Shown: positions 14,885-52,120 of the stretch, piece after piece | How the letters are laid out: each line of letters starts with the position of its first letter | Position numbering within the stretch: the stretch's first letter is position 1 | Source: Singulisphaera sp. GP187 | Lineage (GTDB): Bacteria > Planctomycetota > Phycisphaerae > Phycisphaerales > SM1A02 | DNA: 59,816 nt | Direction: 5' to 3' | Assembly (NCBI GenBank): GCA_945871445.1 | Contig: CAMBWI010000006.1 | Coordinates: forward strand, 1-59,816 | Notes under the pieces: generated by a model | Database searches by the model: none | Told to the model about the DNA's origin: nothing | What the model saw: the letters and a program-made list of their open reading frames with translations, nothing else | Position numbers and translations under genes: made by a program

Positions 14885-16024
14885 ATGCGAATACTGACTC
14901 GATTCATCCTCCTTCGATTCCTCGGCAATTTTTTCTTGCTATTTTCGCTGTTGTTTATCTTTGCAATTTCGATTGACATTCTGATTCAATGGGAAACATT
15001 CGTCAGTTCTGCTGAGAAGATTGAAAGTGCAAAGAGTGGCGTCGAGCAAAGCGCATCCATCTTGGCTGTTGCTAAATTGATCTTGAGTTTTCACGGTCCA
15101 CGAGTCTTCCAGTTTTATCAATACATGATGCCACTTGTTGCGCTTGGTGCAATGGGATTCACAGCATCGGCGATGTTGCGCGCACGAGAATTCGTGGCGA
15201 TTATGGCAGTCGGAATTTCGTTGCGGCGCGCAGTCTTCCCGATGATCATGGGCATGGGAATTCTGTGTTTGCTACAAGTCGCAAATCAAGAATTGATCTT
15301 GCCACGTTTGGCTGCAAGATTATTGCTCGAGCACGGCGATATGGTTCGAGGCACAGTGCGAACATGGGGAATCGGACTCGCCGCGGATTCGCAAGGTTGC
15401 CTGATTCATGCGGAGAGTTTTGATCCCGCAACCGAGACACTGAATGGGCTCTATGCAGTTGAGCGAACAAAAGAAGGTGCGGTTGTGCGACGGATCGAGG
15501 CGCCGCGCGCCAAATGGTCTTCCCAGAAAAGAGCGTGGATGTTGGAAAACGGAAGGGCAGGCGTTCCAACAGGACCAGCCGATGTCCCAACTGGTGAACG
15601 CTCGCCAGTTTTTTTGGATCAACCAATCGAGTCATTCCAAACAGATCTTGATCCAGACACGCTTCGACTCCGGCAGAATCTGCTCTATGCGCACATGTTG
15701 TCGCTTGCAGAGATTGCCGATTTGGCGCGCAACTCCGCCTTCGATCCGACGGCTCTGCGCAGATTTACAACGGGAAGATTCGCATCACTCTTGGTTGGGC
15801 TTCTTGTGCTTGCAATTTCGATTCCATTTTTCGCTCTTCGCGAACCATCGCCAATCTTGAAGCAAGCTGTCAGTTGCGCGGCGCTGAGTCTGCCAATTCT
15901 TTTGACGGCGATGATTGTTATTGCGCTGCCTTTGCCATCTTTGCCACCAACGGTTGGAGTGATTCTTCCGGTCGTTGTACTTCTTCCGATTGCCGTTTGG
16001 AGAATCGTCACGATGAAGACCTGA
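14885..16024 (+). CDS. LptF/LptG-family permease
   Basis: 379 aa, normal length for the family. Starts with the typical RILTRFILLRFLGNFFLLF helix, has two more N-terminal helices, a jelly-roll-like periplasmic region (about 130-270) and three C-terminal helices ending at IVTMKT. AMLRAREFVAIMAVGISLRR is the cytoplasmic coupling segment expected to touch the ATPase LptB, whose likely gene is at 33265-33999. It is the last gene of the response regulator-permease-permease run. The stop codon is followed at once by the 12-bp repeat array. Membrane topology and the paired gene support the call. Confidence 0.87.
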   Translation: MRILTRFILLRFLGNFFLLFSLLFIFAISIDILIQWETFVSSAEKIESAKSGVEQSASILAVAKLILSFHGPRVFQFYQYMMPLVALGAMGFTASAMLRAREFVAIMAVGISLRRAVFPMIMGMGILCLLQVANQELILPRLAARLLLEHGDMVRGTVRTWGIGLAADSQGCLIHAESFDPATETLNGLYAVERTKEGAVVRRIEAPRAKWSSQKRAWMLENGRAGVPTGPADVPTGERSPVFLDQPIESFQTDLDPDTLRLRQNLLYAHMLSLAEIADLARNSAFDPTALRRFTTGRFASLLVGLLVLAISIPFFALREPSPILKQAVSCAALSLPILLTAMIVIALPLPSLPPTVGVILPVVVLLPIAVWRIVTMKT

Positions 16025-16043
16025 CGGGTTTGTGCGGGCGGAA

Positions 16044-16235
16044 ACAGCCACGGATACAGCCGCGGAAACAGCCGCAGAAACAGCCGCGGATGCAGCCGCG
16101 GATACAGCCGCGGAAACAGCCGCGGAAACAGCCACGGATACAGCCGCGGATACAGCCGCGGAAACAGCCGCGGAAACAGCCGCGGAAACAGCCACGGAAA
16201 CAGCCGCGGATACAGCCGCGGATACAGCCGCGGAA
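16044..16235. repeat. 12-bp tandem array, 16 units of ACAGCCGCGGAW
   Basis: Sixteen uninterrupted 12-bp units run from 16044 to 16235; each contains the palindrome CCGCGG, with occasional CCACGG or CCGCAG variants. Three further units, the last degenerate, lie at 16402-16437 beyond the palindromic element. The array sits between the stop of the LptF/LptG gene (+) and the stop of the PPIase gene (-). Because 12 is a multiple of three, all frames stay open and produce artificial TAAE-, VSAA- or RGCF-type repeat peptides. No spacers separate the units, so it is not a CRISPR. Confidence 0.95.
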
Positions 16236-16248
16236 TCGCATCAGTGAG

Positions 16249-16375
16249 CAGCCGTGGAAAGTCCTCTCGGGGCTCAAACAGTCCTCGGCGACCGACACGA
16301 TCCGATTTACGAAGTTTGATTGCAAGTGACGTCGGCCGCCTGCGGAACTCGCCCGAGAGAACTTTCCAACGGCTG
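16249..16375 (+). repeat. Imperfect palindromic element, copy 1 (23/24-nt inverted arms)
   Basis: Left arm 16249-16271 and right arm 16352-16375 are inverted repeats; the core arms GGAAAGTCCTCTCGGG and CCCGAGAGAACTTTCC match at 15 of 16 positions, extended outward by CAGCCG/CGGCTG with a one-base bulge. Within the 80-nt interior, GGCGACCGAC can pair with GTCGGCCGCC at 9 of 10 positions, so the element can form one long hairpin. A second copy in the opposite orientation is at 49681-49808. Both copies are between convergent gene ends. No coding potential is apparent. Confidence 0.9.
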
Positions 16376-16441
16376 GGAACGCAAGTTGAAGTGTGACTGA
16401 AACAGCCGCGGATACAGCCGCGGATGCAGCCACTGAGTCAG

Positions 16442-17458
16442 TTAGTTTTCTGTGCGAGGTCTGCGATTCCACGAATCGGAAAGTGAATCGTCGAAAATTG
16501 TTGGTCGAGCTTTGCGCAGAAGAGTTCGCGCGAGTCGATCCATTTCAACTCGCTCTTGCGCTCGGCGCGCGGATCGTTCATCTTCAGCACGCGTTGTGGC
16601 AGGATTTGCACCATCGCCAGGAATTTCCTCGCGCAGTTGGACGATGGCATAACCATTCTCCAAGAGGATCGCGGCGGAATTTTCGCCGGGCTTGATCGTG
16701 AACAAAACCTCTCGAAAAGCAGGGGGAAATGAAGGATCTAGCCGAGTGATCGGCGCCAATAGCCCGCCGCGTTCGGCACTGGAATCAATCGACAATTGGG
16801 CTGCAACTTCCGAAAATGGTTCGCCAGCATTCAGTCGTGTCCGCACCTTCTCTGCCGCTGCGATATCCGACACAACGATCAGTCGTCCAATGCGTCTTGG
16901 CCCGTGAGCCGTGTCATACGCTTGGCGAATCTCGTCATCGGTGATGGTGATCTCTCGTTTGGCTAACGCACGCAGCGCGGCATTTCTCCACAAGAGAGCT
17001 GCCCATCGCGCAGGTCCGAGTGATTGCGCGTTTCGCAGCGCTGTCAGTAATTGCGCCGCACGAACAGGATCTTTCGCAAGCGCTTCAAGTGCAGTCTTTT
17101 CTTCAAGTGCAATCGCTGCTTCATCGACGGTGATATTCGCAAGTCGCAATTCTTGACGGAGTAATCGCTCAAGCACAATTTCTTCAATCACTTGACCGCC
17201 CGAGACTTCATAGAGTCTCGGTTGCATTTCGTCCCATCCGATGACATCTCCATTGAAGATCGCAGGTGGACGATCATTTGTGGAAATTGGTTTTGCACTT
17301 GGGCGTGTTTCTAAGTTTTCCCTTGGAGAAATCTTGGAATCAGCGGGAAGGACATCGAGTCCCCTTGGTTCTGTCGAGCATCCACAAAGCACCACAGCAT
17401 AAAGGCAGAGTGTGCTGACATTAAGCGCAATAATTTGTAACCGTCGATTCGATTTCAT
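16442..17458 (-). CDS. Parvulin-type peptidyl-prolyl isomerase lipoprotein
   Basis: 338 aa. N-terminal lipoprotein signal with lipobox VLCGC at about residues 23-27. An alpha-helical SurA-like chaperone part follows (NGDVIGWDEMQPRL, LLRQELRLANITVDEAAI), then a parvulin domain (RIGRLIVVSDIAAAEKVRTRL, FSEVAAQLSIDSSAERGGLL, PPAFREVLFTIKPGE, GYAIVQLREEIPG). It should assist folding of exported proteins at the outer face of the inner membrane. Lipid anchoring resembles PrsA more than SurA. It is 7 nt after the glycosyltransferase gene, last of a minus-strand run that ends at the repeat island. Confidence 0.87.
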   Translation of the reverse strand: MKSNRRLQIIALNVSTLCLYAVVLCGCSTEPRGLDVLPADSKISPRENLETRPSAKPISTNDRPPAIFNGDVIGWDEMQPRLYEVSGGQVIEEIVLERLLRQELRLANITVDEAAIALEEKTALEALAKDPVRAAQLLTALRNAQSLGPARWAALLWRNAALRALAKREITITDDEIRQAYDTAHGPRRIGRLIVVSDIAAAEKVRTRLNAGEPFSEVAAQLSIDSSAERGGLLAPITRLDPSFPPAFREVLFTIKPGENSAAILLENGYAIVQLREEIPGDGANPATTRAEDERSARRAQERVEMDRLARTLLRKARPTIFDDSLSDSWNRRPRTEN

Positions 17459-47183: not shown

Positions 47184-49445
47184 GTGAACGTCGATTCTCA
47201 GGAGCCGTGGCTGATTGATTTGACCGACACTCAGCGGCAAGCTGTGACGCATTCTGGAGGTCCGCTGCTTGTGCTTGCTGGTCCTGGGTCAGGCAAAACA
47301 CGCGTGATTACAAGGCGAATTGCGTGCAGAATCGCTGCGGGTGTTCCTGCATGGAAGATTCTTGCGCTGACATTCACCAACAAAGCTGCGCGCGAAATGA
47401 AGGCTCGTGTTGATGCGTTGGTGCCAGCAGATGCCCCAGGTCGTCGAGGGTTGGTCGTCAGTACTTTTCACGCATTTTCCGCTGGAATACTGCGCAGATA
47501 TGGGGCAGAAAGTTTGGCTGCAAGCATTGGGACCAAACCGCTTGCGGCGGAGTTTTCGATTTTCGACATGGATGATGCGCATGCAGTTATCAAAGCGGCG
47601 ATCAGTCAAGCGAATCTCGAAAGTGCGCAGTGGCAAATTGGTTCTGTGGCGACGGAGATTTCTTCCGCGAAAAATCGTCTGCTTTCTGCTGCTGAATACG
47701 CACAAAATGCTCTTGATTTTCGACAGCGCACAATCGCTCGCATCTATGCGATCTATGAGAAAGAGTTGGTGCGTCAGAATGCGCTCGACTTCGATGACTT
47801 GTTGATGCGAACAGCTCGAATGCTTCGCGATGATCCAGTGGTTTTAGCGCAATTACAAGGCAGATTTGAAGAAGTTCTCGTCGATGAATATCAAGACACG
47901 AATCACGCACAGTTCACTGTTGCACATTCAATCGCACGCGAGCACCGCAACATTTGTGTTGTCGGAGATCCCGATCAATCAATTTATGCCTGGCGCGGGG
48001 CGGATATTTCAAACATCCTCGAATTCGAAGAGCATTATCCAGGTGCGACAATCGTGCCACTTGGCGAGAACTTTCGTTCGACATCGCACATTGTCGCGGT
48101 TGCAGATCAATTGATTCGCCGCAATTCGGCCCGTCGCCACAAGGATCTGTTTACTGGATTGGGAGAGGGGGTGCCTCCAAAAATTGCGATGTTGTCCGAT
48201 GAAATCTCCGAAGCAAATTATGTCGTCGAAGAATTACAACGCGCGAACCGCGCTGGAATTCAGTGGAGAGAGATGGCGGTCTTGTATCGGATGAATTCGC
48301 TCAGTCGAACGATCGAAGACGCGCTTCGACGGCAAAATATTCCATATGTGATTGCGCGTGGAACGGTTTTTTATGAGCGTCGAGAAGTTCGCGACACCCT
48401 GAGTTATCTGCGTGCGCTGGTGAATCCAATGGATGAACAAGCTCTGCGCAGAATTATCAATGTGCCTGCACGCGGAATCGGTGCGACATCGATCAGCAAA
48501 TGCGCGGCAGTTGCAACTGCTCGAGGATGCTCGCTTCTCGAGGGGATGATGATGGCGCGACAAGCGGGAATTGCAGAGCGAACTGCAAAGTCAATCGATG
48601 GACTTGTAATGGTTTTGGCTCGGTATCGAAGCGAATTGGAGATTAAGCCCGCAGAAAATCTCGGACCATTCGTCGCTCGATTGATCACCGAGGCGGGACT
48701 TGAACGAGCAGCTGCTGCAATCGCAGATGACGATCAAGATGCTGCGGAACGAAAGTCGAATGTTCAAGAAGTCGCCAATGCAGCCAGTTTGTTCGTGCTT
48801 CCCGAATCTCAGCCGGATGGACGTCCTGCGACGCTCGGCGATGCTCTGCGTGGATTTCTCGAATCCGTTGCGCTTGTCGCTGATTCGGATGTTGTTGATC
48901 CAGAGCGTGGTGTGGTCACCCTGATGTCGCTCCATGCTTCGAAAGGTCTTGAATTTCACACGGTTGCGATCATTGGAATTGAGGAGGGACTTTTGCCGCA
49001 TTCGCGTTCAATGGATTCTCCGCAGGCAGTTGAAGAAGAGCGCAGACTTTTCTTTGTCGGCATCACACGAAGCGAGCGAAGTCTGCTGATGACTTGCGCT
49101 GCAACTCGAGCAGTGCGTGGGCTTCGAATGCGCACGATTGAAAGCGGATTTCTGCGTGAAATCAGCGGCAAAAACATTCAGCGCCTTGATCTGACAGAGC
49201 GTGTGGAATTTGAAGAGGATCAAGATCGACCAGATGGTGATCGACGGCAAGGTGTCGGTGGATCGCGGCGTGGTGGCGACGGTGGATTTCCCGCTGGAAC
49301 AATCGTTCGACATGCGCAATTCGGCGTAGGAACTGTTGAAGAAGTTCTGCCACGCGGAAGTCTGACGAGCGTTCGAGTTCGATTTCGAAGCGCAGGTGTG
49401 CGGACGCTGGTGCTGGAATACGCCAAATTGGAAGTTATTGCTTGA
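47184..49445 (+). CDS. ATP-dependent DNA helicase, UvrD/PcrA type
   Basis: 753 aa from GTG 47184. Superfamily 1A motifs in order: Q-motif LTDTQRQAV, Walker A AGPGSGKTR, Ia LTFTNKAAREM, II VDEYQDTNHAQ, III VVGDPDQSIYAWRGAD, IV LGENFRSTSHIVAVADQLI, V VTLMSLHASKGLEF, VI EERRLFFVGITRSERSLLM. The C-terminal GTIVRHAQFGVGTVEEVLP is the Tudor-like fold of PcrA/UvrD that contacts RNA polymerase. 3'-5' unwinding in repair and replication. Alone on the plus strand; the repeat island lies just downstream. Confidence 0.93.
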   Translation: MNVDSQEPWLIDLTDTQRQAVTHSGGPLLVLAGPGSGKTRVITRRIACRIAAGVPAWKILALTFTNKAAREMKARVDALVPADAPGRRGLVVSTFHAFSAGILRRYGAESLAASIGTKPLAAEFSIFDMDDAHAVIKAAISQANLESAQWQIGSVATEISSAKNRLLSAAEYAQNALDFRQRTIARIYAIYEKELVRQNALDFDDLLMRTARMLRDDPVVLAQLQGRFEEVLVDEYQDTNHAQFTVAHSIAREHRNICVVGDPDQSIYAWRGADISNILEFEEHYPGATIVPLGENFRSTSHIVAVADQLIRRNSARRHKDLFTGLGEGVPPKIAMLSDEISEANYVVEELQRANRAGIQWREMAVLYRMNSLSRTIEDALRRQNIPYVIARGTVFYERREVRDTLSYLRALVNPMDEQALRRIINVPARGIGATSISKCAAVATARGCSLLEGMMMARQAGIAERTAKSIDGLVMVLARYRSELEIKPAENLGPFVARLITEAGLERAAAAIADDDQDAAERKSNVQEVANAASLFVLPESQPDGRPATLGDALRGFLESVALVADSDVVDPERGVVTLMSLHASKGLEFHTVAIIGIEEGLLPHSRSMDSPQAVEEERRLFFVGITRSERSLLMTCAATRAVRGLRMRTIESGFLREISGKNIQRLDLTERVEFEEDQDRPDGDRRQGVGGSRRGGDGGFPAGTIVRHAQFGVGTVEEVLPRGSLTSVRVRFRSAGVRTLVLEYAKLEVIA

Positions 49446-49469: not shown

Positions 49470-49613
49470 CCCACTTATGGAATTCTGCGGCTGCGTCCGC
49501 AGCTGTTTCAGTCGCTCTTCAACTTGCGTTCCACGGCTGACTCAATTTGCTGTCCGATTCTGCGGCTGCCCACTTATGCAATTCTGCGGCTGTCTGCGTG
49601 GCTGCGTCCGCGG
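49470..49613. repeat. Tandem duplication unit 1, without the palindromic insert
   Basis: Two blocks fused directly: block A (49470-49532) and block C (49533-49613). A differs from its second copy (49618-49680) at four of 63 positions and C from its second copy (49802-49882) at one of 81. The A/C junction GCGTTCC|ACGGCTG is where unit 2 carries the palindrome. Confidence 0.9.
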
Positions 49614-49617
49614 AGGG

Positions 49618-49882
49618 CCCACTTGTGCAATTCTGCGGCTGCGTCCGCGTCTGTTTCAGTCGCTCTTCAACTTGCGTTCCCAGCCGCTGGAAAGTTCTCT
49701 CGGGCGAGTTCCGCAGGCGACTGACGGCACTTGCATTCGAGCGTCGATTGAATGGATCGTGTCGGTCGCCGAGGACTGTCTGAGCCCCGAGAGGACTTTC
49801 CACGGCTGACTCAATTTGCTGTCCGATTCAGCGGCTGCCCACTTATGCAATTCTGCGGCTGTCTGCGTGGCTGCGTCCGCGG
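49618..49882. repeat. Tandem duplication unit 2, with the palindromic insert
   Basis: Same blocks A (49618-49680) and C (49802-49882) as unit 1, here separated by 121 bp (49681-49801). The insert is flanked by TTCC on both sides (49677-49680 and 49798-49801). The units are four bases apart. The region lies between the helicase and prolyl oligopeptidase stops. Confidence 0.9.
49681..49808 (-). repeat. Imperfect palindromic element, copy 2
   Basis: Arms at 49681-49704 and 49786-49808 pair like those of copy 1 at 16249-16375, with the same one-base bulge. In minus orientation the sequence matches copy 1 closely: GGCGACCGACACGATCC and CTGCGGAACTCG are identical, while about 18 bases at the apex differ. 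The flank GGGAACGCAAGTTGAAG is also shared. No gene is encoded. Confidence 0.9.
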
Positions 49883-49936: not shown

Positions 49937-52120
49937 CTATCGACACATTCCAGTCTGCCACATCATGAAGGACCATTGATCAGCTTTTTCTGCGATTCGA
50001 TTTGCAAGCGGTTTCCCTTGACCATGTCCAGCATTGCGATCAACCCAAAGGAGAATCGGATCGATGTCCTGATCATTCGCGCTGAGTGCCTGCATACGCG
50101 CGGTCATCTTGCGTGCGTGAAGCGGATGAACGCGCGAATCATTTTCGCCAGCGGTAAAAAGCACCGCTGGATATTTCGTTCCGTTGGTGACATGATGATA
50201 CGGGCTGTACTTTCGAATCCATCCGAATTGCTCTGCATCGTCGCTCGATCCATATTCTGGCACCCAGAATTTTGCCATCAAGAACTGTTGATATCGGATC
50301 ATGTCAAGAAGTGGCACTGCGCTGATCGCCGCACAAAAAAGTTCTGGTCGTTGCGTGACTGCAACGCCAGTCAAGAGTCCTCCATTGGATCCACCTTGGA
50401 TTGCAAGATGACTTGGATTCGTAAACTTCGATGAGATCAACCACTCTGCGCAAGCGTAAAAATCATCAAATACATTTTGCTTGTTCGCACGCATTCCAGA
50501 TTTGTGCCATTCCTCTCCATATTCACTGCCGCCGCGAAGATTGGCAATCGCATAGACGCCACCGCCTTCATACCACGGCCAATTCGTCGCATTGAACGCT
50601 GGATCGAGGCTGACATTGAATCCACCATATCCATAGAGAATGGTTGGCGAATCTCCGCTGAGCACCAAGCCCGCTTTGTGCACGATGAACATTGGAATCT
50701 TGGTGCCGTCCTTGCTTGGGACAAAGACTTGCGAAACAGTCACGCTTGATGGATCGATCGGCACGGTGGGTCGAGCCCAAAGCGTCATTGATCCACTCTT
50801 GAAATCAACGGAATAAATCGATCGCGGTTCGTTAAAACTTGTGTAGCTGACAAATCCATTCGTACGAGTCTCGTCTGTGGCAATAGACGCGCTGCCAAGT
50901 CCTGGCAATTTGATTTCGCCAAGACTCTGTCCGCTTGTTGTAAATCGCTCGATCCGACTGCAGACATCCTTGGAATAGGACGCAACCAACAGACCGCCGC
51001 AATATGCGACAGATTCCAGAACTTCATCGGCGCGCATTGCAATGACTGATTTCCAATTCGCACGCGCTGGCGAGTTCATATCAACAGCCCAGAGCGATCC
51101 CTTTGGAGTATCGAGCGATGAAAGCATATACATCGTGTCACCGATGATCGCTGATGGACGAAAATTTCCATCCAAATCAACTGCAACTGGCACAAGTGTG
51201 ATTGCGCCACTTGGCATTCCAGCACGTTGCCACTGTGCAAAGTCGCCAACAAAGAGATCATTTGATTGCCATCCACGAGACTGCGAAACGATGATCCACC
51301 GACCATCGCGCGAAAGCCCTGCGCCAGGAACGACACTTGGCTCTTTTTGCTTGTAAATCAAGGGATCTTGTTGGGTGTGCACTCCGATTTGATGCCAACG
51401 AATTTCGCGCGAATATGGATCCGCTGGATCTGCCAAGCGTGAATATAAAAAAGCATCTCCGTTGGGCGACCATCCACCGAAAGAAACTTTTCCAGATATT
51501 TCATCGCTCAACCACTGCCCACTGGCAACATCCAACAGATGCAGAACGCTCATCTCACTTCCGGATTTCGAAATTCCAAATGCGATTCTGCGTCCATCTT
51601 GCGAAGGCTCCCACCAATCCAAACTCGTCAAGCCTTTCGCATCGATGGTGTTCACATCGAGCAGGACTTTCTTGTCGGCGCGTGATGGTCCAACAAAAGA
51701 GTTTGTTGCGCTCCCAGAAATCGCAGGTGCAGCACAGTCGGGTGCGAAATAGAGAATTGGCTGATTCTGATTCCCTTCGCGCTCAGTCCAGAATGCGCTC
51801 GCTCCTTCTCGCTTTGGAAGTCCAACCGAACCAATCGACATAAGCGGTGCGAGTTGTTTTTCAAGTTGTGCATGGCAGGGGAGTGCGTTCAAAATGGATT
51901 GCGTGCGATCGTTCTGAATGGTCGTCCACGCCAGAACTTCGGGCGAATCTTTCTCGAGCATTTCGAGCCAGCGATATTCGTCGACGATTGTTTCGCCGTG
52001 TACGAGATCTGAAACTGGTTCAGAGCGAGTTGCAGGTGGAGGCACCAACGCATCTGCGGGAACGCAAATGCAGAGTTGGGAAAATGCGAGAATAGATAGA
52101 GTTCGTGCGAAAGCCGTCAT
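49937..52120 (-). CDS. Secreted prolyl oligopeptidase, S9A family
   Basis: 727 aa from ATG 52120, with a signal peptide (SILAFSQLCICVPADA). Beta-propeller domain at about 60-440 (VDEYRWLEMLEKDSPEVLAW is the family N-terminal motif). Alpha/beta hydrolase triad: Ser in IQGGSNGGLLTG, Asp in AGENDSRVHP, His in NAGHGQGKP. Oxyanion Tyr in LYGYGGFNVSLDP. Cleaves short peptides after proline; export is common in this lineage. Last of the hutI-map-serA-POP run, 10 nt after serA. Convergent with the helicase across the repeat island. Confidence 0.92.
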   Translation of the reverse strand: MTAFARTLSILAFSQLCICVPADALVPPPATRSEPVSDLVHGETIVDEYRWLEMLEKDSPEVLAWTTIQNDRTQSILNALPCHAQLEKQLAPLMSIGSVGLPKREGASAFWTEREGNQNQPILYFAPDCAAPAISGSATNSFVGPSRADKKVLLDVNTIDAKGLTSLDWWEPSQDGRRIAFGISKSGSEMSVLHLLDVASGQWLSDEISGKVSFGGWSPNGDAFLYSRLADPADPYSREIRWHQIGVHTQQDPLIYKQKEPSVVPGAGLSRDGRWIIVSQSRGWQSNDLFVGDFAQWQRAGMPSGAITLVPVAVDLDGNFRPSAIIGDTMYMLSSLDTPKGSLWAVDMNSPARANWKSVIAMRADEVLESVAYCGGLLVASYSKDVCSRIERFTTSGQSLGEIKLPGLGSASIATDETRTNGFVSYTSFNEPRSIYSVDFKSGSMTLWARPTVPIDPSSVTVSQVFVPSKDGTKIPMFIVHKAGLVLSGDSPTILYGYGGFNVSLDPAFNATNWPWYEGGGVYAIANLRGGSEYGEEWHKSGMRANKQNVFDDFYACAEWLISSKFTNPSHLAIQGGSNGGLLTGVAVTQRPELFCAAISAVPLLDMIRYQQFLMAKFWVPEYGSSDDAEQFGWIRKYSPYHHVTNGTKYPAVLFTAGENDSRVHPLHARKMTARMQALSANDQDIDPILLWVDRNAGHGQGKPLANRIAEKADQWSFMMWQTGMCR

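Follow-up and report, generated by a model that had tools for sequence, protein, structure and literature searches.

A hairpin-forming palindrome between convergent genes

What kind of element is a long palindrome that occurs twice in one stretch of DNA, each time between the ends of two convergent genes, and what keeps it there? The question is raised by the window analysed here, a stretch of 59,816 nucleotides from a planctomycete draft genome of 2.26 Mb (G000). Both copies were recovered at the predicted positions (Table 1) and could be aligned with each other across about 180 nt, both flanks included. In each copy the two arms pair with each other; on the plus strand the pairing is interrupted by a bulged A and a C-A mismatch, the latter corresponding to a G-U wobble on the minus strand. 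As the original prediction had it, the apical bases (18–20 nt) are unlike in the two copies with the stem retained, and both copies are enclosed by the stops of convergent genes (16024 and 16442 for copy 1, 49445 and 49937 for copy 2). Repeats had been claimed around both copies: at copy 1 they form a regular 12-bp array, while those around copy 2 are looser. All but two of the strict CAGCC[AG]C[GA]GA matches in the window flank one of the copies.

Table 1 Features of the two hairpin copies and their surroundings (positions within the window).
Feature	Position	Strand	Remarks
Copy 1, hairpin element, subfamily alpha	16249..16375	+	127 nt
Copy 2, hairpin element, subfamily alpha	49681..49808	-	128 nt
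Copy 1, invariant internal-loop strand GCTCAAACAG	16272..16281	+	minus strand CTGTTTGAGC
Copy 1, opposite invariant strand AACTCGC	16346..16352	+	minus strand GCGAGTT
Copy 2, invariant internal-loop strand GCTCAGACAG	49776..49785	-	
Copy 2, opposite invariant strand AACTCGC	49704..49710	-	
Copy 1, 5' outer arm GAAAGTCCTCTCGGGG	16257..16272	+	covaries with 16352-16367 across lineages
Copy 1, 3' outer arm CCCGAGAGAACTTTCC	16352..16367	+	
12-bp tandem array CAGCCGCGGAAA/T (CAGCCGCGG), before copy 1	16038..16235	+	16.5 units
Further short stretch of the 12-bp array, after copy 1	16402..16431	+	
Isolated fragment	49508..49532	-	matches the 3' flank of the element only (query 137-161)
LptF/LptG permease family gene, ends before copy 1	14885..16024	+	PF03739, 5.9e-22
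PpiC-type peptidyl-prolyl isomerase domain gene, convergent, after copy 1	16442..17458	-	profile-tested
Gene ending before copy 2	47244..49445	+	UvrD/PcrA-like helicase, by-eye reading
Convergent gene after copy 2	49937..52120	-	prolyl-oligopeptidase-like protein, by-eye reading

The element belongs to a multi-copy family

The copy number of two holds within the window only. A search of the whole genome gave 52 matches (84–100% identity over most of the query), corresponding to about 50 copies, and the E-values of non-self copies, down to 1e-67, place them far beyond chance. Many of these matches are direct pairs about 190–290 bp apart. Copy counting and a covariance-model search of relatives had been suggested as checks, and both revealed further copies. 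Relatives carry up to about 60 copies per genome, the counts being based on searches and on 797 kb of contiguous sequence sampled from the genome G011. With one mismatch allowed, the 15-mer CTCARACAGTCCTCG occurs 58 times in G000, 62 in G011, 51 in G012, 41 in G016, 24 in G007 and 23 in G009, compared with at most two control matches per genome. The covariance model detected the family in 25 of 400 genomes of the order, in the genera g1, g18 and g2 plus one marginal match. A search with the constant core described below added further genera, notably g40, most genomes of which hold several copies, and g26; the family is present in four genera besides the window's own.

The named records containing the element belong to uncultured Planctomycetota or unassigned uncultured bacteria, and it was absent from the plasmids, phages and viral contigs searched. 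No Rfam family matched the hairpin when the window and divergent copies were scanned, in line with the original statement that it matches no known family, and nothing relevant on such a family in Planctomycetes was found in the open-access literature searched. The hairpin family of these uncultured Planctomycetota is previously unannotated. Several contigs of the window's own genome (C7, C19, C46, C56 and C69) have an end inside the element or very close to it, so that the repeat probably led to breaks in the assembly and to an undercount of copies.

A constant internal loop and exchangeable stems

In G000 alone, the entire 127-nt hairpin appears conserved (alignment of 50 copies). Judged by sequence comparison between lineages, the defining feature of the family is the asymmetric internal loop, not the arms. 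In G014, G015, G007 and the genus g18, the loop strands CTCARACAGTCCTCG and CTGCGGAACTCG are kept, the outer arms and the inner stem are of other sequence, and pairing is retained; the arms in g40 likewise come in several compensated versions. The loop core is best read on the minus strand, 5'-GCGAGUU...UGUYUGAGC-3'. A 3-bp helix within the loop also covaries, with UCC/GGA, CUC/GAG, CCC/GGG and CCG/CGG variants, and the core left constant by all variants is GCUCARACAG plus AACUCGC. Units measure about 85–130 nt and are longer in g18 (about 400 bp), where a conserved tail of about 220 nt comes after the hairpin (L277-L282).

The pairing of the arms proved to be lineage-specific. Arms of the same lineage had a mean energy of -22.2 kcal/mol, compared with -11.5 kcal/mol for arms swapped between lineages, and none of 5000 permutations was as good (one of 5000 for the inner stems). 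The covariation score was 0.228 as against 0.109 in shuffles, the pair counts exceeded those of shuffled and slid controls, and the loop core with complementary flanks matched 30 times in the 797 kb of G011 and not once after shuffling. Together, these results show stems replaced between lineages with their complementarity retained, around a loop that stayed constant.

In 14 of 15 sequence groups the minus strand folds more stably than the plus strand, in part owing to G-U pairs that take the place of plus-strand A-C mismatches; this difference between the strands argues more for single-stranded RNA or ssDNA than for a cruciform. In the minus-strand loop, GA faces GA beside a G-C closed stem, and tandem G-A pairs of the kink-turn type could form in the core. 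With this RNA motif it shares the opposed GA dinucleotides, the G-C closed stem and a larger bulge on one strand; the bulge, however, has 4–5 nt compared with 3 in the kink-turn, and the likeness is one of sequence only. Relative to the genes, this better-folding strand runs antisense to the upstream gene at most tandem sites of G000 and G035. G007 and G014 do not follow this pattern, and a strict sense-strand rule for tandem contexts was dropped.

A second subfamily, beta (GCGAGTTTGCAAGCC...GCAGCATGTTTGAGC), adjoins alpha at 9 of the 12 alpha sites in G011, invariably inverted and on the 3' side of alpha (10/10), so that G011 displays the mosaic of inverted units known from REP/BIME repeats. 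Strict beta was found at one site in G000. A short repeat module, approximately CGGAAACACCGTTGAGCGAGAATTTGATTCGC, follows the last alpha copy at L061, L064, L066, L068, L079 and L083; in G011 the same module leads into beta.

Genomic placement of the copies

Genes were called with our own simple codon-score caller and ARAGORN, and most of the calls flanking G000 copies were Pfam-supported. The enrichment between convergent genes that the original prediction had proposed to examine was evident in G000, where 23 of 32 classifiable sites are convergent compared with 20 of 139 other gaps (p 4e-10); one tandem site turned out to be convergent to a tRNA. In the contiguous G011 sample, the element occupied 7 of 64 convergent gaps, 3 of the 262 tandem gaps and a single one of the 95 divergent gaps (7/64 vs 4/357 for all other gaps, p 3e-4). 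The bias in g40 is weak (7/20 vs 10/68, p 0.057), with some copies between divergent genes, which indicates that it belongs to the window's genus more than to the family. True divergent sites include an amidohydrolase-like/oxidoreductase-like gene pair and a pair of an adk-like gene and recJ. For g18, the 5' side of the element faced the 3' end of a gene or tRNA in nine of ten copies (G035). The placement, intergenic and mostly at convergent or unidirectional gene ends, is that of REP/BIME repeats, more weakly so in g40. The flanking genes tested are ordinary ones with no common function (RuvB, RecJ, PdxA and aconitase among them), and none of the 50 that were profile-tested is a transposase. 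In G015, one copy and the 3' end of a tmRNA gene on the opposite strand are about 94 bp apart (L037 427-537).

Sites are shared between species

Twelve G000 loci map into the G011 sample, and every one of them is occupied there with its orientation unchanged; they represent at most 11 distinct sites, as two are probably one site split by the assembly. Across G011, G012, G016, G009 and G007, orientation is the same at 62 of 65 sites, most of the relatives' loci having been chosen for carrying the element; the G011 sample was not selected locus by locus, but its contigs are the largest. Coding flanks are about 83% identical between species (78% for G007). Orthologous copies, in contrast, do not stay most alike: the identities of orthologous and non-orthologous copies are 0.876 and 0.870 for G011, 0.853 and 0.853 for G012, and 0.889 and 0.879 for G016, and copies inside one genome are not identical either (mean identity 0.907). 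Fixed addresses combined with sequence turnover amount to concerted evolution. These identities show homogenisation within genomes at intergenic addresses common to species, part of which could be an assembly artefact, all genomes being drafts that are often broken at the repeat. No clear pair of an empty and a filled site was found, and mobility was thus not directly seen. The original prediction had missed the loop invariance, the covariation of the stems, the inverted second subfamily and the concerted evolution at fixed sites.

Comparison with known repeats and candidate machinery

REP-type repeats are generally considered to depend on a RAYT and a terminal tag. Reported REPs are 20–40 bp long, carry GTAG or CGTC as a tag on one side of the stem, favour convergent or unidirectional gene ends, and have been reported in Planctomycetes (PMC3733652). 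The present family shares with the REP/BIME repeats of enterobacteria and pseudomonads the interspersed intergenic hairpins in tens of copies or more, their position at gene ends and the mosaics of inverted units. Unlike them, it is built of units well above 20–40 bp in which an internal loop stays constant and the two stems on either side of it are exchangeable, it has no RAYT in these genera, and neither tag was seen by eye at the ends in the alignment of 50 copies. As it departs from REP/REPIN in two tested features, length and RAYT, we regard it as a variant, yet one that is REP/BIME-like in its working. Inverted hairpin pairing (here alpha with beta), species-specific stems and long persistence in a lineage are shared with REPINs (PMC3116915, PMC8049555). 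The element differs from them in pairing two different subfamilies, in lacking a RAYT and in having sites conserved across species at about 83% coding identity. ERIC/RU-1-type repeats are palindromic, intergenic and conserved in overall sequence. RU-1 is 127 bp long (PMC2759123). Length, palindromic form and intergenic position are similar; in those repeats, however, the whole sequence is conserved, and here only the loop, the stems turning over with compensation.

The search for a partner protein removed several candidates. The profile PF01797 (Y1, the RAYT/IS200 transposase) was absent from 23 of 25 genomes, including all those tested of g1, g18 and g40, and present in only two, both of g26; mobility driven by a RAYT, a possibility raised by the original prediction, is thus not supported in the window's genus. 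A reverse transcriptase was present in only 5 of 10 genomes and an L7Ae-family protein in none of 12, and all three were rejected as general partners. An intrinsic terminator was likewise rejected: the GC-rich hairpin has no T-run after either end of copies 1 and 2, which leaves ordinary bidirectional termination as a role unsupported, and terminator-like matches were at chance level.

Weighing the explanations

We consider it probable that the pair are members of a multi-copy interspersed hairpin family, REP/BIME-like, whose core is a loop between exchangeable stems, and that its copies are copied or homogenised by a putative trans-acting factor or by homologous recombination and retained at convergent ends. 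Several findings count against this reading: no copying enzyme emerged from the profile searches, empty and filled sites could not be clearly paired, the orientation of the better-folding strand at tandem genes is awkward, the convergent bias is weak in g40, and the draft assemblies leave room for artefact in the homogenisation. The strongest competitor, which we nevertheless regard as unlikely, is a functional cis-acting RNA element, such as a 3'-UTR stabiliser or protein-bound terminator, selected at each site without copying. Fixed addresses and orientation, convergent enrichment and the gene or tRNA 3' ends beside the G035 copies would suit it, and covarying stems around a constant loop are typical of structured RNA. 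If the sites were independent, however, one would not expect all of them to have adopted one and the same new stem within a lineage, as they did, and orthologous copies should stay most alike, which they do not; the missing T-tract, the lack of a common function among flanking genes and the sites between divergent promoters also argue against it. A DNA-level topological site, bound by gyrase or a nucleoid protein or extruded as a cruciform, that relieves positive supercoiling between convergent genes appears still less probable. It would explain the convergent placement, and BIMEs are known to bind several proteins (PMC2817692), but a site in duplex DNA should not favour the fold of one strand, and the contexts in g40 are mixed.

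The likeness to BIME/REPIN or MITE elements proposed originally holds for a dispersed palindrome that is BIME/REPIN-like in logic, but not for a MITE with conserved termini. A classic MITE, which derives by deletion from a DNA transposon and is recognised through its terminal inverted repeats, would account for short palindromes with long inverted arms and no coding capacity; this reading is already contradicted and highly improbable, as the arms are the part least conserved between lineages, differing yet pairing, no transposase occurs among the profile-tested flanking genes, and the sites are stable between species. Nor do we give much credence to canonical REP/REPIN elements moved by a RAYT (Y1 HUH transposase). 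Copy number, intergenic and convergent placement, species-specific stems, inverted pairing and the occurrence of REPs in Planctomycetes all agree with it, but the distribution of PF01797, the greater unit length and the constant internal loop in place of an end tag do not, and on the draft genomes of these genera it stands refuted.

For the favoured multi-copy hairpin family, a mechanism may be proposed in which a trans-acting factor would recognise the single-stranded hairpin, as RNA or ssDNA, and either the same factor or homologous recombination would copy elements to other sites or convert them there. For REPs, evolution through gene conversion has been suggested (Higgins 1988, as cited in PMC3116915). 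Convergent gene ends would retain copies because a stable hairpin there would be harmless to promoters, and the hairpin probably shields or delimits both converging mRNAs; hairpins would thus be tolerated, and perhaps useful, at transcript ends. More tentatively, the family may represent a class of element recognised in ssRNA or ssDNA through a folded, possibly kink-turn-like internal loop and not through its termini; an enzyme of a type hitherto not linked to repeats would copy it between fixed chromosomal addresses.

The family combines REP-like placement and inverted pairing with another recognition core and no RAYT in these genera, and displays clear concerted evolution at addresses conserved across species. 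Two open questions thereby become accessible to comparative tests: what keeps dispersed bacterial repeats alike, and whether their position at convergent gene ends is due to selection or to targeting.

Some single sites differ between genomes. At the L069 site the element has the opposite orientation in G015 and G007 (L226, L237), and at the L071 site it is flipped in two relatives. In G011 (C5:57982-61640, L127), a foreign stretch of about 3 kb, containing an ORF without a Pfam match and, by eye, IS3-type transposase-like fragments, lies between two copies of the same orientation, with one partial copy cut at its edge; at L066 in G000, the same flanking genes have a single copy between them.
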